Assembly (NCBI RefSeq): GCF_001571405.1
Contig: NZ_BCNX01000006.1
Coordinates: forward strand, 434,001 to 498,000
Source: Methanoculleus thermophilus
GTDB taxonomy: Archaea; Halobacteriota; Methanomicrobia; Methanomicrobiales; Methanoculleaceae
Reading direction: 5' to 3'
DNA length: 64,000 nt
The translations under genes and the position numbers were made by a program. The number at the start of each line of letters is the position of its first letter. Position 1 is the first letter of the stretch. Of this stretch, positions 33,507 to 47,677 are shown one piece after another. Under the pieces are notes generated by a model. That model made no database searches. It saw only the letters and a list, made by a program, of their open reading frames with translations, and was not told the DNA's origin.

Positions 33507-34484
33507 ATGAAGACGAATGCAACTCTTCTGATGGCGGGGGCCATCACGATCCTCTTCATCCTCGCTCTCGCTGCGGGATGCACCACCCCGGCGCCGGGCG
33601 GAAACGAGACCCCGGCCGGAACGGCGACACCCGCTCCCGCCGGCGGGGCGAACGTGCTCCGGATAGCCACCACGACAAGCCTTGAGAACACCGGGCTGCT
33701 TGCGGAGCTCGAACGAGTTTACGAGAGCGAGACCAGAGTGGACCTTCAGTTCATCGCTCAGGGAACCGGACAGTCCATCGACTCGGGCAGGCGCGGCGAT
33801 GTCGATCTCGTCCTCGTTCACTCCCCGGATCTCGAGCAGCAGTTCATCGACGAAGGCTACGGCATCAACCCGCGATGCATCGCCTACAACTACTTCATCA
33901 TCGTCGGCCCGGCGTCCGACCCGGCCGGGATTGCGAACATGACCCCGGTGGAGGCCTTCCAGACGATCTACGCCGCCGGTACGAACGGGACGGCAGGCGT
34001 CGCCTTCGTCTCCCGCGGCGACAACTCCGGGACCCACAACCAGGAGAAGGCGCTCTGGGAGGAGGCGGGCTACGACTATGAGACCGAGATCGTTGACTCC
34101 GGAGCCTGGTACGTCGAGGCGGGCAAGGGCATGGGCGACACCCTGATCCTTGCAAACGAGCAGCAGGCCTACACGCTCTCTGATGAGGGGACCTACCTCT
34201 CATTTGCCGATCGCCTCGATCTCGTGCCGGTCATCGCCGAAGGGGCCGAACTTCTCAATCGCTACAGTGCGATTGCGGTCAATCCCGCAATGCATCCGGG
34301 TGTGAACGCGCAGGGTGCCGCGGACTTCATCAACTGGCTCACCACGAACGAGACTAAGCAGATGATCGGTGAGTTCGGTGCCGAGGAGTTCGGTAAACCG
34401 CTCTTTACGCCGCTTTATGCCCCAGAATGCACGGAGCCGCCGTTCAACTGCACCTGCGCGGAGCCGGTGCCCACCCCAACTTAA
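33507..34484 (+). CDS. tupA: Tungstate ABC transporter, substrate-binding lipoprotein
   Basis: A 325-residue exported binding protein. A signal peptide ends in a lipobox-like ALAAGC, so the mature Cys near residue 25 is probably lipidated. A Pro/Gly/Thr linker follows, then the TupA core beginning LRIATTTSLENTGLL; the TTTS segment binds the oxyanion. RRGDVDLVLVHSPD, NYFIIVGP and SRGDNSGTHNQEK complete the two-lobe signature. TupA proteins bind tungstate very tightly and discriminate against molybdate. tupB and tupC follow. A second tupABC lies at 44.9 kb, and a dead fragment of a third tupA lies just upstream. Confidence 0.9.
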   Translation: MKTNATLLMAGAITILFILALAAGCTTPAPGGNETPAGTATPAPAGGANVLRIATTTSLENTGLLAELERVYESETRVDLQFIAQGTGQSIDSGRRGDVDLVLVHSPDLEQQFIDEGYGINPRCIAYNYFIIVGPASDPAGIANMTPVEAFQTIYAAGTNGTAGVAFVSRGDNSGTHNQEKALWEEAGYDYETEIVDSGAWYVEAGKGMGDTLILANEQQAYTLSDEGTYLSFADRLDLVPVIAEGAELLNRYSAIAVNPAMHPGVNAQGAADFINWLTTNETKQMIGEFGAEEFGKPLFTPLYAPECTEPPFNCTCAEPVPTPT

Positions 34485-34546: not shown

Positions 34547-35242
34547 ATGGTGAATGGGAACCCTATCATCGAAGGGTTCATCGAGGCCATCGAGCTCATC
34601 ATCACCCTTGATCCCCAGGTGGTGGAGATCACCATCCGCTCGCTCTACGTCTCCCTCACCGCCACCTTCTTTGCGTCGCTGATCGCCCTGCCTCTCGGCG
34701 CGCTCATCTACTTCTACGATTTCCGGGGCAAGCACGCGGTCATCTCCACGCTCCAGACGCTCTATGCCCTCCCGACGGTCATCGTGGGTCTGGTCGTGTT
34801 CCTCCTCCTCTCAAACGTCGGCCCCTTCGGGTTCCTTCGCCTCCTCTACACCCCCGGCGGCATGATCGCCGCCCAGACCGTCCTCATCATACCGCTCCTG
34901 ATGGGACTGACAGTCACGGCGCTCTCGGGGATCGATCGGGACAAGCGCTACACGATCACCGCCCTTGGTGCGAGCAGGTTTCAGACGGTCCTGACCATCA
35001 TCGCGGAGGCACGGTTCGCGGTCATGGCCGGCATCCTTCTCGGCTTCGGGAGAGCGATCGCCGAGGTGGGGACGGTGATGATCGTCGGCGGGAATATCCG
35101 GGGCGCCACCCGTGTCCTCACCACGGCGATCGCGCTCAACACATCGATGGCAAATTACTCCCTCTCGATTGCGCTCGGGATCATCCTCCTTGCGGTGGCG
35201 CTCGGCGTGAATATCGCCCTCTCTCTCGTACAACGGCGGTGA
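34547..35242 (+). CDS. tupB: Tungstate ABC transporter permease
   Basis: A 231-residue membrane protein with about five or six helices and the ABC permease EAA-like loop ALGASRFQTVLTIIAEARF followed by GFGRAIAEVG. It is very similar to the second TupB at 45.9 kb (shared EALxLIITLDPxV opening and ALSGxD loop). It starts 62 bases after tupA and ends four bases before tupC. Confidence 0.9.
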   Translation: MVNGNPIIEGFIEAIELIITLDPQVVEITIRSLYVSLTATFFASLIALPLGALIYFYDFRGKHAVISTLQTLYALPTVIVGLVVFLLLSNVGPFGFLRLLYTPGGMIAAQTVLIIPLLMGLTVTALSGIDRDKRYTITALGASRFQTVLTIIAEARFAVMAGILLGFGRAIAEVGTVMIVGGNIRGATRVLTTAIALNTSMANYSLSIALGIILLAVALGVNIALSLVQRR

Positions 35243-35246
35243 TGCC

Positions 35247-36332
35247 ATGACAATCATCGAAGCACACAATATCACGAAGTTCTACGGCGATCTGAGGGTT
35301 CTGTACGACGTCGACCTCTCGGTCGAGGAAGGAGAGATCGTAGGATTGATCGGCCCGAGCGGCTCGGGGAAGAGCACGCTCCTCCGGATTCTCGACCTCA
35401 TCGAGCCGGCAAACGGAGGAGAACTCTCGATCTTTGGGATCGATGTGGCGAGGGAGCGCGGTCGCTGGCTCGATCTGCGCCGCCAGATGGGAATGCTCTT
35501 TCAAAGACCGGTCGTCTTCAATGCATCCGTCTACGATAATGTCGCGATGGGGCTGCGCTACCGCCGGGCCCCCGCCGACGAGGTCGATCGGCGGGTGAAG
35601 GAGGCCCTCGAGGCCGTCGGTCTCTCCCGCTGCATAAAGAGCCGTGCGACCGATCTCTCCGGTGGCGAGCAGCAGCGGGTGGCGCTCTCGAGGGTGCTCG
35701 TGACAGATCCCCGGATCCTCTTCCTGGACGAACCGACGGCGAACCTGGACCCGGGCTCGACCGCCACCATCGAAGCGATCGTGACGCAACTGAACCGCGA
35801 AGCCGGGACGACGGTCATCATGAGTACGCACGACCTTATGCAGGGGCAGCGGCTCGCCCACCGGATCGCCGTGATGATCGACGGCACGATCGCCCAGACA
35901 GGAAGTTCAAGCGAGATATTCCATGCGCCGAAGAACCGGCGGATTGCCCGGTTCGTGGGTGTTCAAAACATCATCCCGGGCCGGGTCGTCTCCCGGCGCG
36001 GGGGCCTCACCGTCGTGGAGGCGCGAGGAAAGGAGATCCTCTCGGCGACCCCGCCGCCCGCCGACGAAGTGGAGATGGTCATCCGCGGGGAAGACATCTC
36101 CCTGCACCGGAGAAAACCCGGCTACGAGGAGGCGGAGAACCTCTTCTCCGCCGCGATCGTCCGGATCGAGTCCACGGCGCCGTTCGTGAACGTTACGGTG
36201 AACTGCGGGTGCGATCTCTCCGCGCTCGTGACCGCGAGGAGGGCGGAGGCCCTTGAACTTCACGAAGGGATGGAGGTCTGGGTCTCTCTTCAGGCAAAGG
36301 CGGTTCATCTTATCCCGATGGAGGGGTCTTGA
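35247..36332 (+). CDS. tupC: Tungstate ABC transporter ATP-binding protein
   Basis: A 361-residue ABC ATPase. Walker A is GPSGSGKSTLL, the signature is LSGGEQQRVALSRV, Walker B is ILFLDEPTANLD and the switch His lies in STHDLMQGQRLAHR. The C-terminal 120 residues are beta-rich and TOBE-like (VFNASVYD belongs to the Q-loop; NIIPGRVV starts the regulatory domain), which may bind the oxyanion and allow feedback inhibition. Last gene of the first tup operon. Confidence 0.92.
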   Translation: MTIIEAHNITKFYGDLRVLYDVDLSVEEGEIVGLIGPSGSGKSTLLRILDLIEPANGGELSIFGIDVARERGRWLDLRRQMGMLFQRPVVFNASVYDNVAMGLRYRRAPADEVDRRVKEALEAVGLSRCIKSRATDLSGGEQQRVALSRVLVTDPRILFLDEPTANLDPGSTATIEAIVTQLNREAGTTVIMSTHDLMQGQRLAHRIAVMIDGTIAQTGSSSEIFHAPKNRRIARFVGVQNIIPGRVVSRRGGLTVVEARGKEILSATPPPADEVEMVIRGEDISLHRRKPGYEEAENLFSAAIVRIESTAPFVNVTVNCGCDLSALVTARRAEALELHEGMEVWVSLQAKAVHLIPMEGS

Positions 36333-36666: not shown

Positions 36667-36732
36667 TCCTCACCTCATTTTCTGGTGAATCTCAACACTG
36701 CACCTATTTGGGCATTCAGCAGCATCACAACC

Positions 36733-37614
36733 ATGAAGACCGAAACGCTCTCATCCGATCCTTTCCCGGCAGATAGGAAGACGGCCGTTACCCGGTGGAA
36801 AGAGCACCGTGGGTGGTACGTGGACTGGTGCACCGTATGGTTCTGCGTCCTTGGCGGTCTGATCGTCGGGATCACGGTGCTTGCGCTCGCGAACATAGCG
36901 ATGACGGAACTCGCCGATCCGGCTCACCTCCTTGAGGTGGCACTATCGTCGGAAGTGATCCACTCGATCCTCCTCACGTTTGGTGCGGGAGCGAGCGCCG
37001 TCCTCCTCCTTATCCTCTTTGGGACCCCGCTCGCCTACGTCCTTGCGCGATCCCGTCCTTCCCGCTTAAAAGGGGTCGTCGAGAGCATCGTCGACATCCC
37101 CCTCATCCTGCCGCACACCGTGGCGGGCCTGCTTGTCTACCTCCTCTTCATGCGCCGGGGATGGCTCGGCGCGCCGCTCTCGGAGATCGGGCTCGCGTTT
37201 GAGGATGCATTGCCGGGAACGATCGTTGCGATGCTCTTTGTTTCTTCCCCGTTCTTCATCAATACCATGCGCGAGGGATTCGAGATGGTGCCGGTCCACA
37301 TGGAGAACGTTGCCCGCACGCTCGGGGCGGACACATTCACAGCGTTTCGAACGGTCACCCTTCCTTTAAGCCTCCGGCACATGTACAGCGGAGCCGTTCT
37401 CGCCTGGGGAAGGGCCATTGGGGAGTTTGCCGGCGTCGTCATGATCGCCTACTACCCGTTCATCATATCGACGCTGATCTACTACTTCTTCACGACTGAT
37501 GGAATCTACACGAGCAGGAGCATCGCATTTACGGTCATCCTGGTCAGTCTTGGGGTATTCTACCTTCTGCGGAGGATGACCCGGTACTTAGGGAGGTACG
37601 ATGATAGAGTTTGA
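36733..37614 (+). CDS. wtpB: Molybdate/tungstate ABC transporter permease
   Basis: A membrane protein of about 293 residues with six helices and the ModB/WtpB-type loop ENVARTLGADTFTAFRTVTLP, followed by GRAIGEFAGVV. The N-terminal 30 residues are hydrophilic. The ATG at 36733 is chosen over a GTG at 36685; neither has a clear ribosome binding site. The gene overlaps wtpC by 14 bases. No intact binding-protein gene lies next to it, so the transporter is either inactive or borrows a binding protein. Confidence 0.85.
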   Translation: MKTETLSSDPFPADRKTAVTRWKEHRGWYVDWCTVWFCVLGGLIVGITVLALANIAMTELADPAHLLEVALSSEVIHSILLTFGAGASAVLLLILFGTPLAYVLARSRPSRLKGVVESIVDIPLILPHTVAGLLVYLLFMRRGWLGAPLSEIGLAFEDALPGTIVAMLFVSSPFFINTMREGFEMVPVHMENVARTLGADTFTAFRTVTLPLSLRHMYSGAVLAWGRAIGEFAGVVMIAYYPFIISTLIYYFFTTDGIYTSRSIAFTVILVSLGVFYLLRRMTRYLGRYDDRV

Positions 37615-38668
37615 CCGCGTCTCGCTCAATCTCGGCTCGTTCTCGCTTGACGACGTCAGCCTGACAATCGGTATGGGCGACTACTACTTCATCGTCGGGC
37701 CTTCGGGTGCAGGAAAGACAGTCCTCCTCGAAGTGATTGCCGGACTCCACCGGCCGGACAGCGGCCGCGTCCTCCTTCGAGGCACCGAGATCACCACCCT
37801 CCCTCCGGAGAAACGGGGGATCGCCCTCGTCTACCAGGACTACTCGCTCTTTCCGAACATGACGGTCGTGGACAACGTCTCATACGGCCTCCGGGTGCGG
37901 GGAATGCGAAAGAATGAGGCCCGTGCCGAGGTCGTCCCACTCCTCGAGCGGTTCGGGATCGGTCACCTCGCCGACCGCTACCCGGGATCCCTCTCCGGCG
38001 GCGAGCAGCAGCGGGTGGCGCTTGCACGGGCTATCGCGGTGAAACCGGATATCCTCCTCCTCGACGAACCGCTCTCGGCCCTCGACCCAATCACGCAGGA
38101 GAAGTTCATCGCCGATCTCAAGCGGCTCCACCGGGAGGACGGGCTCACCATCGTCCAGGTGAGCCACTCCCGGCGGGAAGCGCACCACCTCGCCACTCGT
38201 ATGGCGGTGCTCATCGATGGAAAACTCGTGGACGAGGGGGAGGCGGGGGCCGTCCTGAACACTCCCCGCAGCCGCGAGGTCGCCAGGTTTGTCGGGATCG
38301 AGAACGTCCTGGATGGGATCGTGACCGAAAACGATGGAGGGCGAGCGATCGTGGATCTCGGGGGGTGGTCCTTCGAGGCGGTGACGGATGCCGCCACGGG
38401 CGAGGAGGTCACCCTCTGCATCCGGGCCGACGATCTCATCATCTCCGTCGGGCATGATCCGCGTACCAGCGCCCGGAACAGAGTGGCCGGCACGGTCGTC
38501 TCGGTCGTGGAGAACGGGCCAATTGCCGAGGTGCGGGTGGATGCGGGCGTCACGCTCACTGCGGTCCAGACCCGACGGTCGGTGCGGGACCTGGGCCTTG
38601 TCCCGGGAACGCCAGTCACCCTCTCCGTGATGGAGACGGGGGTCCACGTTATCCGTTCTTTTTCTTAA
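37601..38668 (+). CDS. wtpC: Molybdate/tungstate ABC transporter ATP-binding protein
   Basis: A 355-residue ABC ATPase: Walker A GPSGAGKTVLL, Q-loop LVYQDYSLFPNMTV, signature LSGGEQQRVALARAI, Walker B ILLLDEPLSALD and the His of VSHSRREAHH. The C-terminal part after residue 235 contains a TOBE/MOP-type beta domain (NRVAGTVVSVVENG) of the sort that binds molybdate in ModC-like proteins. It is coupled to wtpB by overlap, and its end overlaps the convergent SemiSWEET-like pseudogene. Confidence 0.9.
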   Translation: MIEFDRVSLNLGSFSLDDVSLTIGMGDYYFIVGPSGAGKTVLLEVIAGLHRPDSGRVLLRGTEITTLPPEKRGIALVYQDYSLFPNMTVVDNVSYGLRVRGMRKNEARAEVVPLLERFGIGHLADRYPGSLSGGEQQRVALARAIAVKPDILLLDEPLSALDPITQEKFIADLKRLHREDGLTIVQVSHSRREAHHLATRMAVLIDGKLVDEGEAGAVLNTPRSREVARFVGIENVLDGIVTENDGGRAIVDLGGWSFEAVTDAATGEEVTLCIRADDLIISVGHDPRTSARNRVAGTVVSVVENGPIAEVRVDAGVTLTAVQTRRSVRDLGLVPGTPVTLSVMETGVHVIRSFS

Positions 38669-38947: not shown

Positions 38948-40081
38948 TCACGACCCGGACTGCCGGCTGCCTTCCCGCCACTTGAGAGCGTAGGCGAGAA
39001 CCATCCCTATGATGAACGCAAACGTGAGGCCTATTATGAGGGTGAGGATCGCGATGACCGCCGTGACCAGGTAGGACTCCGTCTTGATGCTGTGTTTCCC
39101 TAGCTCTATCGCTACAAAGACGAGGAGCGCTCCAAAGATCCCGAGCGGGATGAGTGTCAGCACCTCCGGCGGGGCGAAGGCAAGGGCGAAGATGAGAATG
39201 AAGATTCCGGCGACGATATTCGCCCCGCCGGTCCTCGCGCCGAACCGGTACATGGCCGCAAGCCCCCCGGCGCCGTGGCACATCGGAAACCCGCCGAGCG
39301 GCGTCGAGACCAGGTTCATGACCCCGATCGTCCGGGAGAGCCGGTCGGGGTCCACACCCTTCTTTGGGAAGAGGTCGTAGGTGAGGAGGGATGTCGCGAG
39401 GATGGCGTTTGCAATCGTGAGGGGAATCTGAGGCAGCGCAAGGTCCCAGGTCGCGGCGATGAAGTCCGTCGGCATCGGAATGAGGAGGGCGGGAAGGGGC
39501 ATCAGGCGGAACGGCGGCATCCCCTGCGTGGCGATCCCCATGGCAAGCCCAATGATCAGGACCAGGAGTGCGGAGATGTCGGGGATCCGGGTGCGCTGCG
39601 ATACGATGAAGAAGGCAAGGATGATTGCTATCGCGACCGCCGCAACAAGGAGGTCGGGGAGGATATAGCCAAGCGATGTCTCCAGGAGGACGAGTGCAAG
39701 CCCCGCCTGGACGCCCCGGATGACGCTCTTTGGGATCCGGTCCCCGAGCCACGTCATCCCGCCGACGAGTCCGAGCACCAGGAAGAGCACGCCGACGACG
39801 AGGCCCGAAGCCACGATCTCGGCACCGCAGAGTCCTTCGGCGATGACGATGGCCCCGATCGCCTTCATCGGCTCGATGGGGATTGGGAGGCGGTAGTAGA
39901 ACCCGGTGATGATGAACCAGGCGGCGAGGAAGAGGAAGAAGTGGCTGACGTTCACGTCCGGGCAGACGATGGCCACACCGAGCAGAATCGGGAAGATGGT
40001 GCCGAAGTCGCCGACCGCTCCGGCGATCTCTTCAAGAGAGATCCGTATGCCGCCCATTCCCGTCCCGGTCTCCTCTGCCAT
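38948..40081 (-). CDS. MOT1-family molybdate/sulfate transporter
   Basis: A 377-residue membrane protein with about ten helices, related to the SulP-like MOT1 molybdate transporters. The two family signatures are present: YYRLPIPIEPMKAIGA near residue 65 and the FPMCHGAGGLAAMYRFGART segment in the second half. It begins with a hydrophilic 15-residue tail. In this position, among tup and wtp genes, molybdate is the likely substrate; sulfate cannot be excluded. It is transcribed alone towards the wtp genes. Confidence 0.85.
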   Translation of the reverse strand: MAEETGTGMGGIRISLEEIAGAVGDFGTIFPILLGVAIVCPDVNVSHFFLFLAAWFIITGFYYRLPIPIEPMKAIGAIVIAEGLCGAEIVASGLVVGVLFLVLGLVGGMTWLGDRIPKSVIRGVQAGLALVLLETSLGYILPDLLVAAVAIAIILAFFIVSQRTRIPDISALLVLIIGLAMGIATQGMPPFRLMPLPALLIPMPTDFIAATWDLALPQIPLTIANAILATSLLTYDLFPKKGVDPDRLSRTIGVMNLVSTPLGGFPMCHGAGGLAAMYRFGARTGGANIVAGIFILIFALAFAPPEVLTLIPLGIFGALLVFVAIELGKHSIKTESYLVTAVIAILTLIIGLTFAFIIGMVLAYALKWREGSRQSGS

Positions 40082-40332: not shown

Positions 40333-41340
40333 TCACGTCGCCTGTCCGGGAGCGGTGCCCCTCTCGCGGCCTTCGCCGGTCGGGGGAGAGATCGGAGGGC
40401 CGGGTTCCTCCTCCTCCTTCTTCTCGTCGAGGAGGCCTTCGGCCTTCAGCCGTTCGATGGCCTGGTCCAGGTACTCCGAGACGATCCTGTCCCTCTCGTG
40501 GATCTGCCGTATCCAGACCCGCACCGTCAGCCTGATCCACTCCTCCTTGATCGACGAGACCTGCACCTTCGGCTCGAGGAATGCCTGGTCGGCGCGGGGG
40601 AGATCGGAGGAAAGGCGCCCGATGTAGGGCAGATCGAAGAGGCTCTGGAGGGCGGACCGCTCGGCCGGCTCGACGTGGGTCAGGATCAGGGGATGGTCAT
40701 GCGCGGCGGTAAGCGCGATCTCCTCCACCCGCGTAAGATCTGCGGTGATCGGGACGGCGAGCGGGATCGAGACCTCCAGAAGTCCGGCGCGGGAGTAGTT
40801 GATCACTTTTGAGGTTATGATACTCGAATTCGGTGTGAGGATCAAACCGCCGTCGAGACCCTTGAGGGTCGTCGTCGTGAGGGAGATATCCTGCACCTTG
40901 CCGGGCCCGGTCTCCGGCCTTCCGCTGACGCTCACCCATTCCTCGAGCTGGATGGGGCGGTTGATGGTTATCAGGACGCCTGCGATAACGTTCTGGATAA
41001 TCTGGCGCGATGAGAAGGCTATGACGATACCGAGGATACCGAGCGAGGCGGCGAAGGCCGTTGGATCGAAGGCGAGGAAGTGCCGTGCGCTCGCGTAGAT
41101 CCCTCCAAGGGTTATGCCGTACTGCAGTACGGCCGATGTCCACTTGGCCGTCCCACGGGATACCCGCCCGTCAAGGACCCGCCGAAGGAGCATGTAAGCG
41201 AGGTTGCCGAGGAAGAGAAACCCGATAAGCGTGAAGAGGAATGCGAGGAACGCATCGAGGGGAACTCCGCCGATGAGGAGCGAACCGCTCTCCTGTATGG
41301 GGGTGAGGTGAGAGATGGTAGAATTAATTCCTTCCGTCAT
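40333..41340 (-). CDS. MscS-family mechanosensitive channel (second of a tandem pair)
   Basis: A 335-residue small-conductance mechanosensitive channel homologue. Three N-terminal helices are followed by the pore-lining region FAASLGILGIVIAFSSRQIIQNVIAG, split here, and the beta domain (NRPIQLEEWVSVSG, TTTLKGLDGGLILTPNSS). The C-terminal domain ends in an acidic/Pro-rich tail. The ATG at 41340 overlaps the upstream channel stop (ATGA). The frame is open further upstream, but only as a shadow of the neighbouring channel. The paralogue differs at the pore (SSRQII here, SSTQIT there). Confidence 0.88.
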   Translation of the reverse strand: MTEGINSTISHLTPIQESGSLLIGGVPLDAFLAFLFTLIGFLFLGNLAYMLLRRVLDGRVSRGTAKWTSAVLQYGITLGGIYASARHFLAFDPTAFAASLGILGIVIAFSSRQIIQNVIAGVLITINRPIQLEEWVSVSGRPETGPGKVQDISLTTTTLKGLDGGLILTPNSSIITSKVINYSRAGLLEVSIPLAVPITADLTRVEEIALTAAHDHPLILTHVEPAERSALQSLFDLPYIGRLSSDLPRADQAFLEPKVQVSSIKEEWIRLTVRVWIRQIHERDRIVSEYLDQAIERLKAEGLLDEKKEEEEPGPPISPPTGEGRERGTAPGQAT

Positions 41341-42221
41341 GCCGCATCGACCTTCACCGGGATCTCCTCGGCCGAGAGACGCCTGAGAACTTCTCGCATG
41401 TACCGGGAGATGATATCGTCCTTCTGTGGGATCTTGCGGGTCCAGACCCGGATGACCAGTTTGATCCAGCCGTCGGTGACCGATGTGATATGGATGGCCG
41501 GTGCAAGATCTGCAACGTCGGTGCTGTCGGAGGAGACGCGCCAATTGTAGGGATGGTTCAAGAGATCCTGAATAATGGAGTGCTCGACCGCATTGGGGTG
41601 CTGAATGATACGCGGGTCGTCGCGCGCCACTGAAAGTGCGATCTCCTTTGCCCGGGTCAGGTCCGCCCAGGCCGGGATGGTGATCGAGACCCGGATCTCC
41701 ATCAACCCGCCCCGGGAGTAGTTGACAACCTTTGAGGCTATGATGCTTGAGTTCGGCATGAGGATGAGGGAGCCGTCGAGCCCCTGAAGGATCGTCGTCG
41801 TGAAGGAGAAGTCGCGCACCCTGCAAAGCCCTGTTGACGGCAGCTCCCCGACGACGATCCACTCCTCGAGCTGGACCGGGCGATTGATGGTGATAAGGAT
41901 ACCTGCAAGGATGTTCTGCGTGATCTGGGTCGATGATACGGCCACGACGATACTGATGATTCCAAGCGATGCGACGACGGCGTTCAGGTCGAAGGCAAGG
42001 AGATACCGGGCACTCGCATAACCCCCGCCGATGATGACGGCATACTGCAGGATAGCCGCCGTCCACTTGGCCGCCCTCGGTGAGACCCGTCCATCCAGTG
42101 CTCGTCTAAGAAGCATGTAGGCGAGGTTGCCAAGGATGAGGAGCACGATGAGGGTGAGGATGAACGCGAAGAACGCGCCAATGGATCCCCCACCGATGAG
42201 GGATGGCTCGCTCGATTGCAT
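41337..42221 (-). CDS. MscS-family mechanosensitive channel (first of a tandem pair)
   Basis: A 294-residue MscS homologue with the same layout as the following gene: LLILGNLAYMLLRRALDGRV, the pore helix VVASLGIISIVVAVSSTQI, and INRPVQLEEWIVVGE with TTILQGLDGSLI. It lacks the charged C-terminal tail. A TATA-like GGTTAATTC lies about 28 bases upstream on the minus strand. Such channels release solutes or ions on osmotic downshock. The pair may form mixed heptamers. Confidence 0.88.
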   Translation of the reverse strand: MQSSEPSLIGGGSIGAFFAFILTLIVLLILGNLAYMLLRRALDGRVSPRAAKWTAAILQYAVIIGGGYASARYLLAFDLNAVVASLGIISIVVAVSSTQITQNILAGILITINRPVQLEEWIVVGELPSTGLCRVRDFSFTTTILQGLDGSLILMPNSSIIASKVVNYSRGGLMEIRVSITIPAWADLTRAKEIALSVARDDPRIIQHPNAVEHSIIQDLLNHPYNWRVSSDSTDVADLAPAIHITSVTDGWIKLVIRVWTRKIPQKDDIISRYMREVLRRLSAEEIPVKVDAA

Positions 42222-42264: not shown

Positions 42265-42633
42265 TCAGTCGCCGTCCTGACACCCGGGGACGGCTGCACG
42301 AGCCTGCAGTGCCGAATAGATGTCTGGCCCTAGGACCTCTTTTGCGCGCTCGCCGTAACGCTCTGCTATGACTGCAAGGAGCTTACGGGTCCCCGAGGCT
42401 GTGGTGGAGATTCCGACCCGTTCCACCCGGCGGATCAGCCCGTCGCGCTCCATATCGCCGAACCGGGGAAGGACATAGTAGTGGGGTATCCCGAGGTGCT
42501 CGGCGAGCTTTCGGGTCGTAGGGAACCGTATGGTAACTCCATCTGGTGAAAAACCGATCGTTATGCAGCGTTCCTCTTCAAGAAGGATTCTCGCGGCCGC
42601 GTCAAAGATGTCGTCGTGCTCGTGCGTGGTCAT
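42265..42633 (-). CDS. Winged-helix DNA-binding protein, small
   Basis: A 122-residue protein. Residues 30-80 look like a winged helix: TTRKLAEHLGIPHYYV (recognition helix) followed by MERDGLIRRVERVGI and a short wing. No ligand or metal domain is visible. It is probably a transcription regulator, and its position between transporters and the MoSto gene makes it a candidate regulator of this island. It sits upstream of the MscS pair on the same strand. Confidence 0.55.
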   Translation of the reverse strand: MTTHEHDDIFDAAARILLEEERCITIGFSPDGVTIRFPTTRKLAEHLGIPHYYVLPRFGDMERDGLIRRVERVGISTTASGTRKLLAVIAERYGERAKEVLGPDIYSALQARAAVPGCQDGD

Positions 42634-42683: not shown

Positions 42684-42920
42684 TTACGCCGCTTCGGCTG
42701 CCTTCATCTCGCCCCGCTCTTCCTCGGGCATCTCCTCGAGGTAGACAACCTCCGCCCCGACGTCTTTTGCAATCTGTTCGAGTTCAACTTTGCGGAAGTG
42801 GGTTCCCTCGACTTTCAGGTGTTTCTCATCGCCCTGCTCTTCGATAACGGCGACGACACGGAACCTGGGTTGCTTCACACCGGTGCCGACCTTCTGGCGC
42901 TCTCGTACGTAGATCTTCAT
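42684..42920 (-). CDS. Small conserved-looking protein of unknown function
   Basis: A 78-residue charged protein. It starts MKIYVRERQKVGTGVKQPRF, continues with VVAVIEEQGD, and has a helical middle (KVELEQIAKDVGAEVVYL) and an acidic tail. It may be a small RNA-binding or regulatory protein. AGGAG lies 11 bases before the start. It is divergent from the MoSto-like gene and shares its control region, which contains two GGTATACC palindromes. Confidence 0.6.
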   Translation of the reverse strand: MKIYVRERQKVGTGVKQPRFRVVAVIEEQGDEKHLKVEGTHFRKVELEQIAKDVGAEVVYLEEMPEEERGEMKAAEAA

Positions 42921-42943
42921 ACCGCATTCATCTCCTATCAGGT

Positions 42944-42963
42944 GGTATACCAGTTGGTATACC
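42944..42963. promoter_or_regulatory. Double GGTATACC palindrome in the MoSto control region
   Basis: GGTATACC occurs at 42944-42951 and 42956-42963 with AGTT between, so the two eight-base palindromes lie 12 bases apart, centre to centre. The TATA-like GATATAAC of the MoSto gene lies eight bases further right, and the divergent small gene starts 23 bases to the left. This is a typical place for a dimeric regulator that controls both genes. Confidence 0.5.
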
Positions 42964-43009: not shown

Positions 43010-43819
43010 ATGGCAGAACGGATTGAGATGAGATCGAGGTTCAAAGGTGAGAGCCTGGTCCGGCGAACCCTGCTCCGCGAGACCGAGGCGGGCGAGCAGA
43101 TCAGGATCATGCCGGACTTAAACGTGGTCAAGATCGGCGGCCATGGCGTCATCGACTACGGACGGGCCGTGGTCTACCCGCTGGTAGAGGAGATCGGGGA
43201 ACTCTCCCGGAACCATAAGATCCTGGTCGCCACCGGCGGCGGCGTCCGGGTCCGGCATATCCTCGACGTCGGGATCGACCTCGGGATGCCGACGGGGGTG
43301 CTTGCGGAACTCTCGGGTAAGATCAGTGAGCAGAACGCGATCATGCTCTCCATCCTCCTCTCGAAGTACAACGGAGTTCGGATCACTCCCGGCGATCTCT
43401 TAGATCTCCCCTCGATCATATCCCTTGGAATGCTCCCTGTCGTCCAGGGCACCCCACCCTACGGGCTGTATGAGCACCCGCCGAGACTCGGGAGCATCCC
43501 GCCGCACCGGACCGATACCGGCGCCTTCCTGATGGCGGAGGTCATCGGCGGAAAGAGTTGCATCCTCGGAAAGAACGTCGACGGTCTCTACACCGAAAAT
43601 CCTTTTGAGAACCCCGACGCCGAGTTCATCCCGGAGATCACCGCCGACGAGCTCCTGGAGATGCACCTTGAGGATATGGTGCTCGAACCGATGGCGGTCG
43701 AGCTCCTCCGTGATGCCGTCCACGTGAGAGAGATCAAGATCGTGAATGCCCACGTGCCGGGGAATATCACGAAGGCCGTGAACGGGGAGCGGGTTGGGAC
43801 CCTGATTCGGGCCTCGTAA
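43010..43819 (+). CDS. Molybdenum storage protein (MoSto)-like, amino-acid-kinase fold
   Basis: A 269-residue protein of the UMP-kinase-like fold. It follows Azotobacter MoSto subunits closely: RIMPDLNVVKIGGHGVID with VYPLVEEI and RNHKIL, GGGVRVRHILDVGIDLGMPT, PPYGLYE then SIPPHRTDTGAFLMAE, NVDGLYTENP, and the end REIKIVNAHVPGN with GERVGTLI. MoSto forms a cage that stores polyoxomolybdate or tungstate clusters using ATP. Only one subunit gene is present, against alpha and beta in Azotobacter. The 34-residue N-terminal arm before the kinase fold is also MoSto-like. The position between Mo/W transporters fits storage. A plain UMP kinase is the alternative but lacks this N-terminal arm. Confidence 0.8.
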   Translation: MAERIEMRSRFKGESLVRRTLLRETEAGEQIRIMPDLNVVKIGGHGVIDYGRAVVYPLVEEIGELSRNHKILVATGGGVRVRHILDVGIDLGMPTGVLAELSGKISEQNAIMLSILLSKYNGVRITPGDLLDLPSIISLGMLPVVQGTPPYGLYEHPPRLGSIPPHRTDTGAFLMAEVIGGKSCILGKNVDGLYTENPFENPDAEFIPEITADELLEMHLEDMVLEPMAVELLRDAVHVREIKIVNAHVPGNITKAVNGERVGTLIRAS

Positions 43820-43895: not shown

Positions 43896-44594
43896 ATGAC
43901 TATCTACCTTGGCATTGACGACACCGACACCCGCGAGTCCCGGGGAACCGGACGGCTCGCTCGCGCGATTGCAGCAGAACTCGCCAGGATGTATACGGTG
44001 ACGGGGGTGACCCGGCACCAACTCTTTGTCCACCCCGCTGTCCCTTACACCTCGCATAACAGCTCAGCGGTCATCCACATCCATGAAGAGACAAACGGGG
44101 CCGTGGCCGAGATCTTTGAGACGGCAAAGGAACTGATGCTCGCCGACTTCATCGAGGGGAGCGATCCCGGGATCTGTGTCGCTGGCGACCGAAAGATCAA
44201 CGGCGACATCACCCACTTCGGGCTCGCCGCAAAGACGAGTATCGTGACGCAGGATGAGGCGCGTTCCCTTGCCCGCGAGGCCGGAATCCTCCTTGAAGGG
44301 CTTGGAGGTACCGAGGACGGCGTCATCGGCGCGCTCGCTGGGGTGGGTCTCGCGGCATCGGGGAACGATGGCAGGTTTGTTCAGAAGGGAACGATCCGGG
44401 ACCTACGCGGCAACCAGACGATTGCGGCGATCCTTAATTCCGGCGTCGACCGGGTCATGACCCGCGACGGCGCAGCGGTCGAGGAAGGTGTCGTCGCGCT
44501 CCGGAAGTTCCCAAAACCCGCCTGCGTCGGGGGAAAGGCGATCCTCTACGTCGAGGCTGACGGCGAGGGATATCGCGATATCGTGGTGGGATGA
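43896..44594 (+). CDS. TiaS-like protein lacking the OB and zinc domains
   Basis: A 232-residue protein that opens with IYLGIDDTDTRESRGTGRLA, similar to the ATP-binding start of TiaS, the archaeal enzyme that attaches agmatine to the wobble cytidine of tRNA-Ile. HPAVPYTSHNSSAV also corresponds to a TiaS segment. Full TiaS has about 420 residues with RNA-binding OB and zinc-ribbon domains, which are missing here. It may be a phosphotransferase that uses the IDDTD active site on another substrate. Its place between the MoSto-like gene and the second tup operon hints at a role in metal or cofactor handling, which is inference. Confidence 0.6.
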   Translation: MTIYLGIDDTDTRESRGTGRLARAIAAELARMYTVTGVTRHQLFVHPAVPYTSHNSSAVIHIHEETNGAVAEIFETAKELMLADFIEGSDPGICVAGDRKINGDITHFGLAAKTSIVTQDEARSLAREAGILLEGLGGTEDGVIGALAGVGLAASGNDGRFVQKGTIRDLRGNQTIAAILNSGVDRVMTRDGAAVEEGVVALRKFPKPACVGGKAILYVEADGEGYRDIVVG

Positions 44595-44912
44595 ACCGCG
44601 GAGATCCCGGTTCTCTATAAATCTTTTTTGAGTTCGCCTTCGGCGGTCAATCCCTATCCTCCCATCGCACCCCTCGCAGTTGCTCGTTCTCTTTCCTGTC
44701 TTCGGGCTCCTAGTCTATTAATCAGCATCTTTACTGCGACTGCCGTTCCGCGCCCGGCGGCGGGGGGTCGGCGGAGCACCCTGTCCCGGGGGCCTTAATA
44801 ATCAAATTTAGTTTCTTTTTTTTCTGTGTTAATATGATTAACTTTATTAAGTTTCTATTAATTCAAAACAGTTCTATTTAAATGTAGATATCACGATATC
44901 TCTTTGAGAACT
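44595..44912. other. Long control region before the second tupABC
   Basis: No gene is seen. A T-rich stretch near 44625 may terminate the preceding gene. The right half is very AT-rich, with an inverted repeat GTTAAT-ATG-ATTAAC (44828-44842), a TATA-like TCTATTTAAATG (44874-44885) and the palindrome listed separately. Confidence 0.6.
44886..44901. promoter_or_regulatory. Palindrome between TATA box and start of the second tupA
   Basis: AGATAT and ATATCT flank CACG, a perfect 6-bp inverted repeat directly after the TATA box and 12 bases before the start codon. A protein bound here would block transcription initiation. Confidence 0.5.
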
Positions 44913-45836
44913 ATGCAACAAAGAACCATTTTTGCAGTTACGGCCATATTGGTCGCATTTATGCTCATCTGCGGCTGTACTGGGACGACATCCGACCAGA
45001 CTCCCGGAGAAAAGCAGCAGCTCCGTATCGCAACGACGACCAGTCTCTACGATACCAAACTCCTCGATCACCTCACCCCGATCTTTGAGGAGAAGTACAA
45101 CGCCGAGCTGATCATTGTCTCTGGCGGAACCGGCAAGGCGATCGAGTATGGACAGCGGGGCGACGTTGACGTCCTGATGGTGCACGACCGTGCACGTGAA
45201 GATGCCTTCCTCGCCGACGGCTACGGTACCAACCGGCGCGTATTCGCCTACAACTACTTCATCATCATCGGACCCGAGTCCGACCCGGCCGGCATCAAGG
45301 GCATGGACCCCGAGCAGGCATTCACCACCATCCGTGAGAAGGGAATGGCTGGTGAGAATGTCGTCTTCGTCTCGCGCGGCGACGCCTCGGGAACGCACTC
45401 AAAGGAGCAGGCAATCTGGAAGGCAGCCGGATTCAACTACTCGACAGATATCCAGGGCTCCGGCAGCTGGTACCAGGAGGCCGGGACCGGCATGGGTGCG
45501 ACCATTGCGATGGCGAATGAAAAGCAGGCCTATGCTCTCTCCGACATCGGGACATTCCTTGCCTACAAGGGCGATGTTGACCTCGTAGCGCTCGTCGACG
45601 AGGGCGATGCCCTGCTCAACGTCTACTGCGCAATGCAGATCAACCCCGAGAAGTACCCCGACACCAACACCGCCCTCGCGAAGGACTGGATCAACTTCCT
45701 GATCTCTGACGAGATCCAGCAGGAGATCGCCTCCTTCGGTGTCGAAGAGTATGGCCAGCCGCTCTTCTATGCCGCCCAGAACGACTGGGAGAAGATCGGC
45801 GTGCCGCAGGCTGAAGTGAAGGACCCGGTCCTCTGA
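44913..45836 (+). CDS. tupA: Tungstate ABC transporter, substrate-binding lipoprotein (second copy)
   Basis: A 307-residue lipoprotein: the signal peptide ends in the lipobox LICGC (Cys about residue 21), with a short linker and then the TupA core LRIATTTSLYDTKLL. The binding-protein signatures QRGDVDVLMVHDR, NYFIIIGPESDPAG and SRGDASGTHSKEQ match the first copy. Unlike that copy it has no Pro-rich linker and no Cys-rich tail. The ATG at 44913 follows a TATA box and palindrome; an upstream TTG at 44904 is less likely. First gene of tupABC copy two. Confidence 0.9.
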   Translation: MQQRTIFAVTAILVAFMLICGCTGTTSDQTPGEKQQLRIATTTSLYDTKLLDHLTPIFEEKYNAELIIVSGGTGKAIEYGQRGDVDVLMVHDRAREDAFLADGYGTNRRVFAYNYFIIIGPESDPAGIKGMDPEQAFTTIREKGMAGENVVFVSRGDASGTHSKEQAIWKAAGFNYSTDIQGSGSWYQEAGTGMGATIAMANEKQAYALSDIGTFLAYKGDVDLVALVDEGDALLNVYCAMQINPEKYPDTNTALAKDWINFLISDEIQQEIASFGVEEYGQPLFYAAQNDWEKIGVPQAEVKDPVL

Positions 45837-45894: not shown

Positions 45895-46596
45895 ATGTAC
45901 GAGATCATCGAGGGATTTCTGGAGGCGCTCCGGCTCATCATAACGCTTGATCCTGATGTTATGGCAATCTCCTTGCGGAGCATCATTGTCTCATTCACAG
46001 CAACGATCTTTGCCTCACTGATCGCCGTTCCGCTCGGCGGCGTAATCTACTTTGGGTCGTTCCCGGGCAAGAAGAGTCTCATTAACCTGATTCAGACCCT
46101 CTACTCTCTGCCGACGGTCATCGTCGGGTTGCTCATCTTCCTGCTCCTCTCCCGCGTCGGGCCGTTTGGATTTCTGCGACTGCTCTTCACCCCGACCGCC
46201 ATGATCATCGCACAGACGGTTCTTATCCTGCCGATCATGATCGGTCTTACGATATCCGCTCTCTCGGGGGTCGATCCGATCATCAGGGATACCCTCCGCT
46301 CGCTTGGAGCGACTCGTTTTCAGTTCCTCGCAAACACCATGAAGGAGGCCAAATTCGCGATCCTTGCGGCCGTTGCACTTGGATTCGGGCGGGCGATATC
46401 CGAGGTCGGAGCGGCGATCCTTGTCGGCGGCAACATCATGGCGTCGTCATTTTCGAGTTCGACCCGGGTGCTGACGACCGCGATATCTCTCGAGACCTCG
46501 ATGGGGAACATCTCTCAGTCCATCGCACTCGGGATCGTCCTCCTCGCAATCGCTCTCGTCGTCAACTTCGTCATAACCACGGTCCAGCACAGGTGA
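45895..46596 (+). CDS. tupB: Tungstate ABC transporter permease (second copy)
   Basis: A 233-residue permease with about five or six helices, the loop SLGATRFQFLANTMKEAKF and GFGRAISEVG. It is collinear with the first TupB, with an extra Ser-rich insertion (ASSFSSSTR) before the penultimate helix. Four bases separate it from tupC. Confidence 0.9.
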   Translation: MYEIIEGFLEALRLIITLDPDVMAISLRSIIVSFTATIFASLIAVPLGGVIYFGSFPGKKSLINLIQTLYSLPTVIVGLLIFLLLSRVGPFGFLRLLFTPTAMIIAQTVLILPIMIGLTISALSGVDPIIRDTLRSLGATRFQFLANTMKEAKFAILAAVALGFGRAISEVGAAILVGGNIMASSFSSSTRVLTTAISLETSMGNISQSIALGIVLLAIALVVNFVITTVQHR

Positions 46597-46600
46597 TCCC

Positions 46601-47677
46601 ATGATTGAACTTGAAGGCGTCAGAAAATCGTTCGACGGCAAGGAGGTGCTTGCCGGCGTTTCCGCACGCATCGAGCGTGGGGAGATCTTTGCCGTCATCG
46701 GGCCAAGCGGGTCCGGAAAATCAACCCTGCTGCGCCTCATCGACCTCCTCGATACCCCGACAGGAGGCGCGATCCGGATCAACGGCGTCGATATCCATGC
46801 AAATCGTGAAGAGAGTCATAGAGTACAGCGGATGATGGGGATGGTCTTCCAGAAACCCGCCGTCTTCAACACGACCGTTGCGGAGAATATTGCAGTTGGA
46901 CTCCGGTTTAGAGGGATCAAGGAGGCGGCGATCAAGGCGAAGGTCGAGGAGGCCCTTGCCGTGGTCGGCCTTGCCGGCTACGAAGAACGGCGGGCCAGAA
47001 CCCTCTCGGGCGGGGAGATGCAGCGGGTGGCGCTTGCCCGGGCGATGGTGATCGAACCGGAGATCCTCCTGATGGATGAACCGACCGCAAACCTTGATCC
47101 CGTCTCGGTGGAGAAGATTGAGGAACTGGTGGTGCGGATCAACCGCGACCTCGGGACGACGATCGTCTTTTCGACCCACGATATGTACCAGGGCCAGCGG
47201 CTTGCCCACCTGATTGGCGTACTGATGAACGGGCGGTTTGCGCAGGTAGGGACTCCGCGGGAGGTCTTCACCCATCCGGCAAGTCGGGAGGTCGCCCGGT
47301 TCGTCGGGATCGAGAATATCATCGACGGCGTCGTCGTCGCCAGCAACGGCACCTGTGCCGTCGATGCTGGCGGCGTCAGGATTCGGACTCGCTCGCCGCT
47401 TACCCCGGAGGAACTGGTCAGTCTCTGCATCCGTTCGGAAGACCTGCGGGTCACCCCGGCAGGTGAGGCGACGACCGCGCCGGGAAAGAACACCCTTCCC
47501 GGCATCGTGACCTCGATCGTGCCTCGCGGCCCGTTCAGCAGGGTGACTGTCGACTGCGGGATAACCCTCTCGTCAATTCTTTCCTGGAAGGTGGTCGACA
47601 ATCTCGGCATCCGCGAAGGGAGCCATGTTGCGGTCTCGTTTGCGGAAGAGTCGGTTCATGTTGTCAGGCGGGGATGA
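46601..47677 (+). CDS. tupC: Tungstate ABC transporter ATP-binding protein (second copy)
   Basis: A 358-residue ABC ATPase with Walker A GPSGSGKSTLL, signature LSGGEMQRVALARAM, Walker B ILLMDEPTANLD and FSTHDMYQGQRLAH. The C-terminal 110 residues form a TOBE-like domain beginning NIIDGVVV. It parallels the first TupC along its length, so the two operons come from a whole-operon duplication or from transfer of a related copy. Confidence 0.92.
   Translation: MIELEGVRKSFDGKEVLAGVSARIERGEIFAVIGPSGSGKSTLLRLIDLLDTPTGGAIRINGVDIHANREESHRVQRMMGMVFQKPAVFNTTVAENIAVGLRFRGIKEAAIKAKVEEALAVVGLAGYEERRARTLSGGEMQRVALARAMVIEPEILLMDEPTANLDPVSVEKIEELVVRINRDLGTTIVFSTHDMYQGQRLAHLIGVLMNGRFAQVGTPREVFTHPASREVARFVGIENIIDGVVVASNGTCAVDAGGVRIRTRSPLTPEELVSLCIRSEDLRVTPAGEATTAPGKNTLPGIVTSIVPRGPFSRVTVDCGITLSSILSWKVVDNLGIREGSHVAVSFAEESVHVVRRG

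Follow-up and report, generated by a model that had tools for sequence, protein, structure and literature searches.

A single-gene relative of the Azotobacter molybdenum storage protein and a co-inherited small protein in a Mo/W gene neighbourhood of Methanoculleus thermophilus

The locus and its Mo/W setting

The window (the whole stretch of 64,000 nucleotides of Methanoculleus thermophilus DNA that was analysed) contains a gene of the molybdenum storage protein (MoSto) family, with exact reading-frame bounds, set among genes for oxyanion transport (Table 1). The first-pass annotation had placed this gene between tungstate transporters together with Wtp and MOT1 genes, and this setting was confirmed. 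Note that the Tup and Wtp matches are clear yet fall under the NCBIfam cut-offs, and that specificity for Mo or W is not fixed by them. Three features are new relative to that annotation: a co-inherited small gene designated here as sm78, operator-like repeats between sm78 and MoSto, and a winged-helix-like gene, sm122.

Table 1. Features of the MoSto locus (window coordinates)
Feature	Position	Strand	Remarks
TupA/TupB/ATPase, set 1	33507-34484, 34547-35242, 35247-36332	+	
WtpB-type permease	36685-37614	+	NCBIfam WtpB 229.5 bits, below cut-off
WtpC-type ATPase	37601-38668	+	NCBIfam WtpC 368.5 bits, below cut-off
MOT1-type molybdate transporter	38948-40081	-	Pfam MFS_MOT1, E 8e-53
sm122, candidate transcription regulator	42265-42633	-	122 aa; winged-helix-like; after sm78, same strand
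sm78, uncharacterised	42684-42920	-	78 aa; predicted b-b-b-a-b-a
Operator-like palindromic repeats (two GGTATACC, TACCARYTGGTWTA)	42936-42963		Divergent promoter region between sm78 and MoSto
Single-gene-type MoSto-family protein	43010-43819	+	269 aa; amino-acid-kinase fold with N-terminal arm
TiaS-TCKD-like / methanogenesis-marker-11-like protein	43896-44594	+	
TupA-type tungstate/oxyanion-binding protein, set 2	44904-45836	+	NCBIfam TupA 194.8 bits, below cut-off
TupB-type permease, set 2	45895-46596	+	NCBIfam TupB 156.8 bits, below cut-off
ABC transporter ATPase with TOBE domain, set 2	46601-47677	+	Pfam ABC_tran and TOBE

Tup-type transporters and MOT1 recur near MoSto across families, the Mo/W island being conserved across lineages. 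For 59 MoSto loci outside the Methanoculleus-like set, raw counts gave a Mo/W transporter nearby in at least 39 and FdhA/FdhB, FmdE or MoeA nearby in at least 15; these are lower bounds, many of the loci being cut by contig ends. Several details of the island were also recorded. No obvious WtpA binding protein lies alongside the WtpB/WtpC-type pair. Two neighbouring MscS-type channel genes occupy 40333-42221 (minus strand), a slot that in several relatives holds a second WtpB/WtpC-type pair, and the TiaS-TCKD/marker-11-like gene adjoins MoSto also in the Geobacter-type loci L101, L110 and L181 (1729-2496).

Family membership of the MoSto-like protein

Searched against the PDB with phmmer, the protein encoded at 43010-43819 matched MosB best (E 7e-69, 235 bits, residues 15-269), with MosA at E 2e-48 (168 bits) and the best UMP kinase at E 7e-10 (no more than 42 bits). 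The homology that had been claimed along most of the length was thus recovered, and the motifs cited for it are present: GGGVRVRHIL at residues 76-85, IPPHRTDTGAFL at 163-174 and GERVGTLI at 259-266. Fold, full-length homology and the presence of an N-terminal arm are all shared with Azotobacter vinelandii MosA and MosB (PDB 2OGX, 4F6T, 5O5W, 6RKD). An AlphaFold model (pLDDT 83) lay closest to MosB chains (TM 0.88), followed by MosA, and the structural alignment with MosB gave 46% identity. The RxRH, QN, PPY and RTD signatures of MosA and MosB are invariant or nearly so in the single-gene family. At the ATP site the KxGG motif is kept; Lys41 (shared with MosB, where it is Lys42), Gly43 and Gly44 are invariant in single-gene MoSto, and a Kb42S variant of MosB is present in the PDB.

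An arm of approximately 35 residues precedes the kinase core and is kept within the single-gene family, in which Arg4, Glu14, Leu16 and Arg18 are conserved. Of the earlier claim about this arm, its presence and its conservation in the family therefore stand, but with MosA and MosB it could be aligned only loosely.

Because the fold and a glycine-rich core motif are common to MoSto and the archaeal UMP kinase PyrH (TIGR02076), because UMP kinase structures superimpose on the model at TM ∼0.70, and because MosB-type genes are often named “uridine (monophosphate) kinase” in databases, the protein might be a divergent UMP kinase, or another enzyme of the amino-acid-kinase family, mis-assigned through fold similarity. 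Pfam returned only the generic amino-acid-kinase family. The NCBIfam PyrH models, however, gave 62-65 bits on this protein (top score 65.5, against a cut-off of 158.05), and a true UMP kinase scoring 263.6 bits is encoded separately in the M. thermophilus genome. UMP kinases lack the arm, and the match of the M. thermophilus enzyme begins at the core. A maximum-likelihood tree, which together with an alignment had been proposed as a check, separated UMP kinases from MosA, MosB and the single-gene clade with a 100/100 split. Given also the Mo/W gene context, UMP kinase identity was rejected and an assignment of this kind is highly improbable. Sequence comparison and structural modelling make it nearly certain that the gene encodes a true relative, of single-subunit type, of Azotobacter MoSto.

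The M. thermophilus genome (2.22 Mb, 99.5% complete) carries one MoSto copy, unlike Azotobacter, where two subunit types form an (alpha-beta)3 cage. Since there is one MoSto gene per genome, the homomeric assembly suggested at first is plausible. To see whether homomer preceded heteromer, we asked if MosA and MosB fall in or outside the single-gene group; support in the tree was weak (44/71), and a monophyletic single-gene clade was not rejected (AU p 0.27).

Distribution, sm78 and the divergent promoter region

Of the 232 Methanomicrobiales genomes, 152 carry MoSto. Beyond this order it occurs sporadically in the rest of the phylum, in Asgard MAGs (Borrarchaeum, Sifarchaeum) and in genomes of the Geobacter/Anaeromyxobacter type, and the genes mostly lie within Mo/W islands. 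The bacterial and Asgard genomes checked have one MoSto gene each. MoSto was present in 30 of the 141 genomes from the Geobacter order, in one of them as the MosA/MosB type. Methanospirillum-type genomes have two copies in tandem, each with its own sm78; these were considered as a hidden MosA/MosB pair, which was rejected, as MosA ligands are in neither copy.

Work on MoSto has treated it as a protein of Azotobacter that supplies nitrogenase. A link of this kind was rejected for Methanomicrobiales, where no positive association with nifD was seen among the 232 genomes: MoSto occurs in 22 of 41 genomes with nifD and in 130 of 191 in which nifD was not detected (Fisher p 0.10). The M. thermophilus genome, in which no full NifD was found, has three genes each for FwdB/FmdB and FdhA. 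The single-gene type thus differs from Azotobacter MosA/MosB both in having no nitrogenase link and in having an sm78 partner. According to a genetic study (PMC6448029), no homologs of MoSto are known from databases, and our literature search, which covered papers readable without subscription, found no description of archaeal or single-gene MoSto.

sm78 starts 90 bp from MoSto. Members of the family range from 70 to 78 residues and mostly lie right beside MoSto. Searches of Pfam, NCBIfam and the PDB gave no family match. Model confidence is low (pLDDT 69), and in a fold search the best PDB match had E 0.12, with several top matches to complex I NDUFS4-type proteins that are too weak for use. 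Conserved residues are mostly basic, with one histidine among them (Lys2, Arg6, Arg8, Lys10, Pro18, Ala24, His41, Arg43, Glu46).

Among Methanomicrobiales, sm78 is present in 151 of 152 genomes with MoSto and in 4 of 80 without it. The tally was 151 with both, 1 with MoSto alone, 4 with sm78 alone and 76 with neither, and the Fisher value of 4e-55 overstates independence, the genomes being related. The four genomes with sm78 alone are 62-84% complete. In Geobacterales, 29 of 30 MoSto genomes have sm78, compared with 2 of 111 genomes without MoSto; of those two, one has its copy at the edge of a contig, and in the second sm78 is a 33-residue fragment with a stop. The one MoSto genome in this order without sm78 encodes MosB (83% to Azotobacter) and MosA (74%, cluster ligands present), and so provides a natural control for the partnership. 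Profile searches found sm78 adjoining MoSto in Asgard and bacterial loci as well. Taken together, the distribution and adjacency of the two genes argue strongly for a functional link.

The one Geobacterales exception is a true MosB/MosA pair in a genome whose relatives have sm78 (G662, locus L180, 2511-4182, minus strand). Two loci in Methanomicrobiales genomes G103 and G189 (L122, 1480-2315, and L123) have a broken or frameshifted MoSto and keep sm78.

The palindromic repeats lie in the region from which the two genes diverge. GGTATACC occurs three times in the 64 kb, against 0.26 expected. In 39 of 72 archaeal loci the 150 bp upstream of MoSto include an exact copy of TACCARYTGGTWTA; the 925 kb elsewhere contain a single match, and this also sits between sm78 and MoSto. 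Allowing up to one mismatch within 250 bp, TACCARYTGGTWTA was detected in 56 of 68 archaeal loci and in none of the 6 bacterial ones, the background being 0.007 per 250 bp. No such motif was found upstream of the Tup or MOT1 genes in the 64-kb window. sm122, which has weak HTH matches only, was detected at 115 loci, often next after sm78; those that were checked are all archaeal, and the bacterial loci lack it. Six loci have the motif with no detected sm122. sm122 may bind the repeats and regulate the locus.

This layout bears on what sm78 does. In archaea it is transcribed away from MoSto, beside the winged-helix-like gene and the operator-like motif, as might be expected if MoSto were a homomeric Mo/W store and sm78 a regulatory or housekeeping neighbour taking no physical part in the cage. 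In Geobacter-type bacteria, however, sm78 lies downstream of MoSto on the same strand, with neither sm122 nor the motif (in Geobacter argillaceus it is preceded by a ribosome-binding-like AGGAGG), so co-inheritance outlasts loss of the regulatory layout; furthermore, sm78 is missing where MosA and MosB stand in for the single-gene type. We consider a mere neighbour rather unlikely.

A possible Mo/W store and the role of sm78

Azotobacter MoSto is loaded in an ATP-dependent manner with ∼100 Mo or W atoms as polyoxometalates. That the M. thermophilus protein uses Azotobacter-type storage chemistry, as had been supposed at first, is not borne out by its residues. Glu129 and His156 of MosA are named as cluster ligands (PMC4504029). 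In the M. thermophilus protein, MosA Glu129, His140 and His156 are replaced by Thr126, Ile136 and Gly152, and single-gene relatives mostly have His126, Leu136 and Gly152 at these positions. His140 lies at the three-histidine W3 site of MosA and is likewise a cluster ligand. The protein also differs from MosB in having Thr148 at the position of Met149, presumably the entry gate, a role for which this residue was reportedly proposed in a 2019 PNAS study of the MoSto mechanism. Another set of residues is fixed in the single-gene clade: His45, Lys104, Glu107, Thr148, Glu155 and His248. Because the three MosA residues are not conserved, cluster storage may not occur in single-gene MoSto or may differ, and a homomer would contain no MosA-type cluster ligands. 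Note, however, that MosB is likewise without these ligands, and their absence alone does not exclude storage.

The replaced ligands and the different fixed residue set would suit an ATPase that handles Mo/W oxyanions without storing them as polyoxometalates. It might, for instance, serve as an activator or chaperone and, together with sm78, deliver the metal to cofactor synthesis; the conserved Arg, Lys and His residues of sm78 could bind an anion, and MoeA, FmdE and Fdh genes lie near MoSto in some loci. Such a function is unlikely, since MosB, the closest relative, is part of a working store despite lacking the same residues and since the cage-forming MoSto signatures are retained.

The best explanation, and a probable one by a modest measure, is a homo-oligomeric, ATP-driven store of Mo/W oxyanions in which sm78 takes on work done elsewhere by MosA. 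The product of the single gene would assemble into a homo-oligomeric, likely hexameric, cage. The flanking transporters would import molybdate or tungstate, ATP would drive its loading into the cage, and the stored metal would buffer the supply to formylmethanofuran and formate dehydrogenases. sm78 would exert its effect at the cage or inside it, perhaps in oxyanion handling, cluster nucleation or ATP-site closure, and would thereby take on work performed by MosA in Azotobacter; given the low confidence of its model, any such molecular role is a guess.

Since sm78 is present in almost every MoSto genome, usually adjoining, the store may have two parts. More tentatively, and with the balance somewhat against it, archaea and Geobacter-type bacteria may have a second Mo/W storage architecture, a homo-oligomeric cage that works only with sm78, the sm78 and MosA solutions swapping between genomes. 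The idea that sm78 replaces MosA draws on one heteromeric genome in the two orders surveyed and on two plasmid MosA/MosB loci of Azospirillum, where no sm78 was found within ∼4 kb.

The Mo/W storage proteins Mop and Tub consist of TOBE domains, Tub being a TOBE hexamer with eight tungstates, and have likewise been proposed to store Mo/W oxyanions in anaerobes that carry Tup transporters (PMC11980592). They are of unrelated fold and, unlike the store proposed here, are not ATP-driven. If single-gene MoSto does store metal, Mo/W buffering would be a widespread trait of hydrogenotrophic methanogens.
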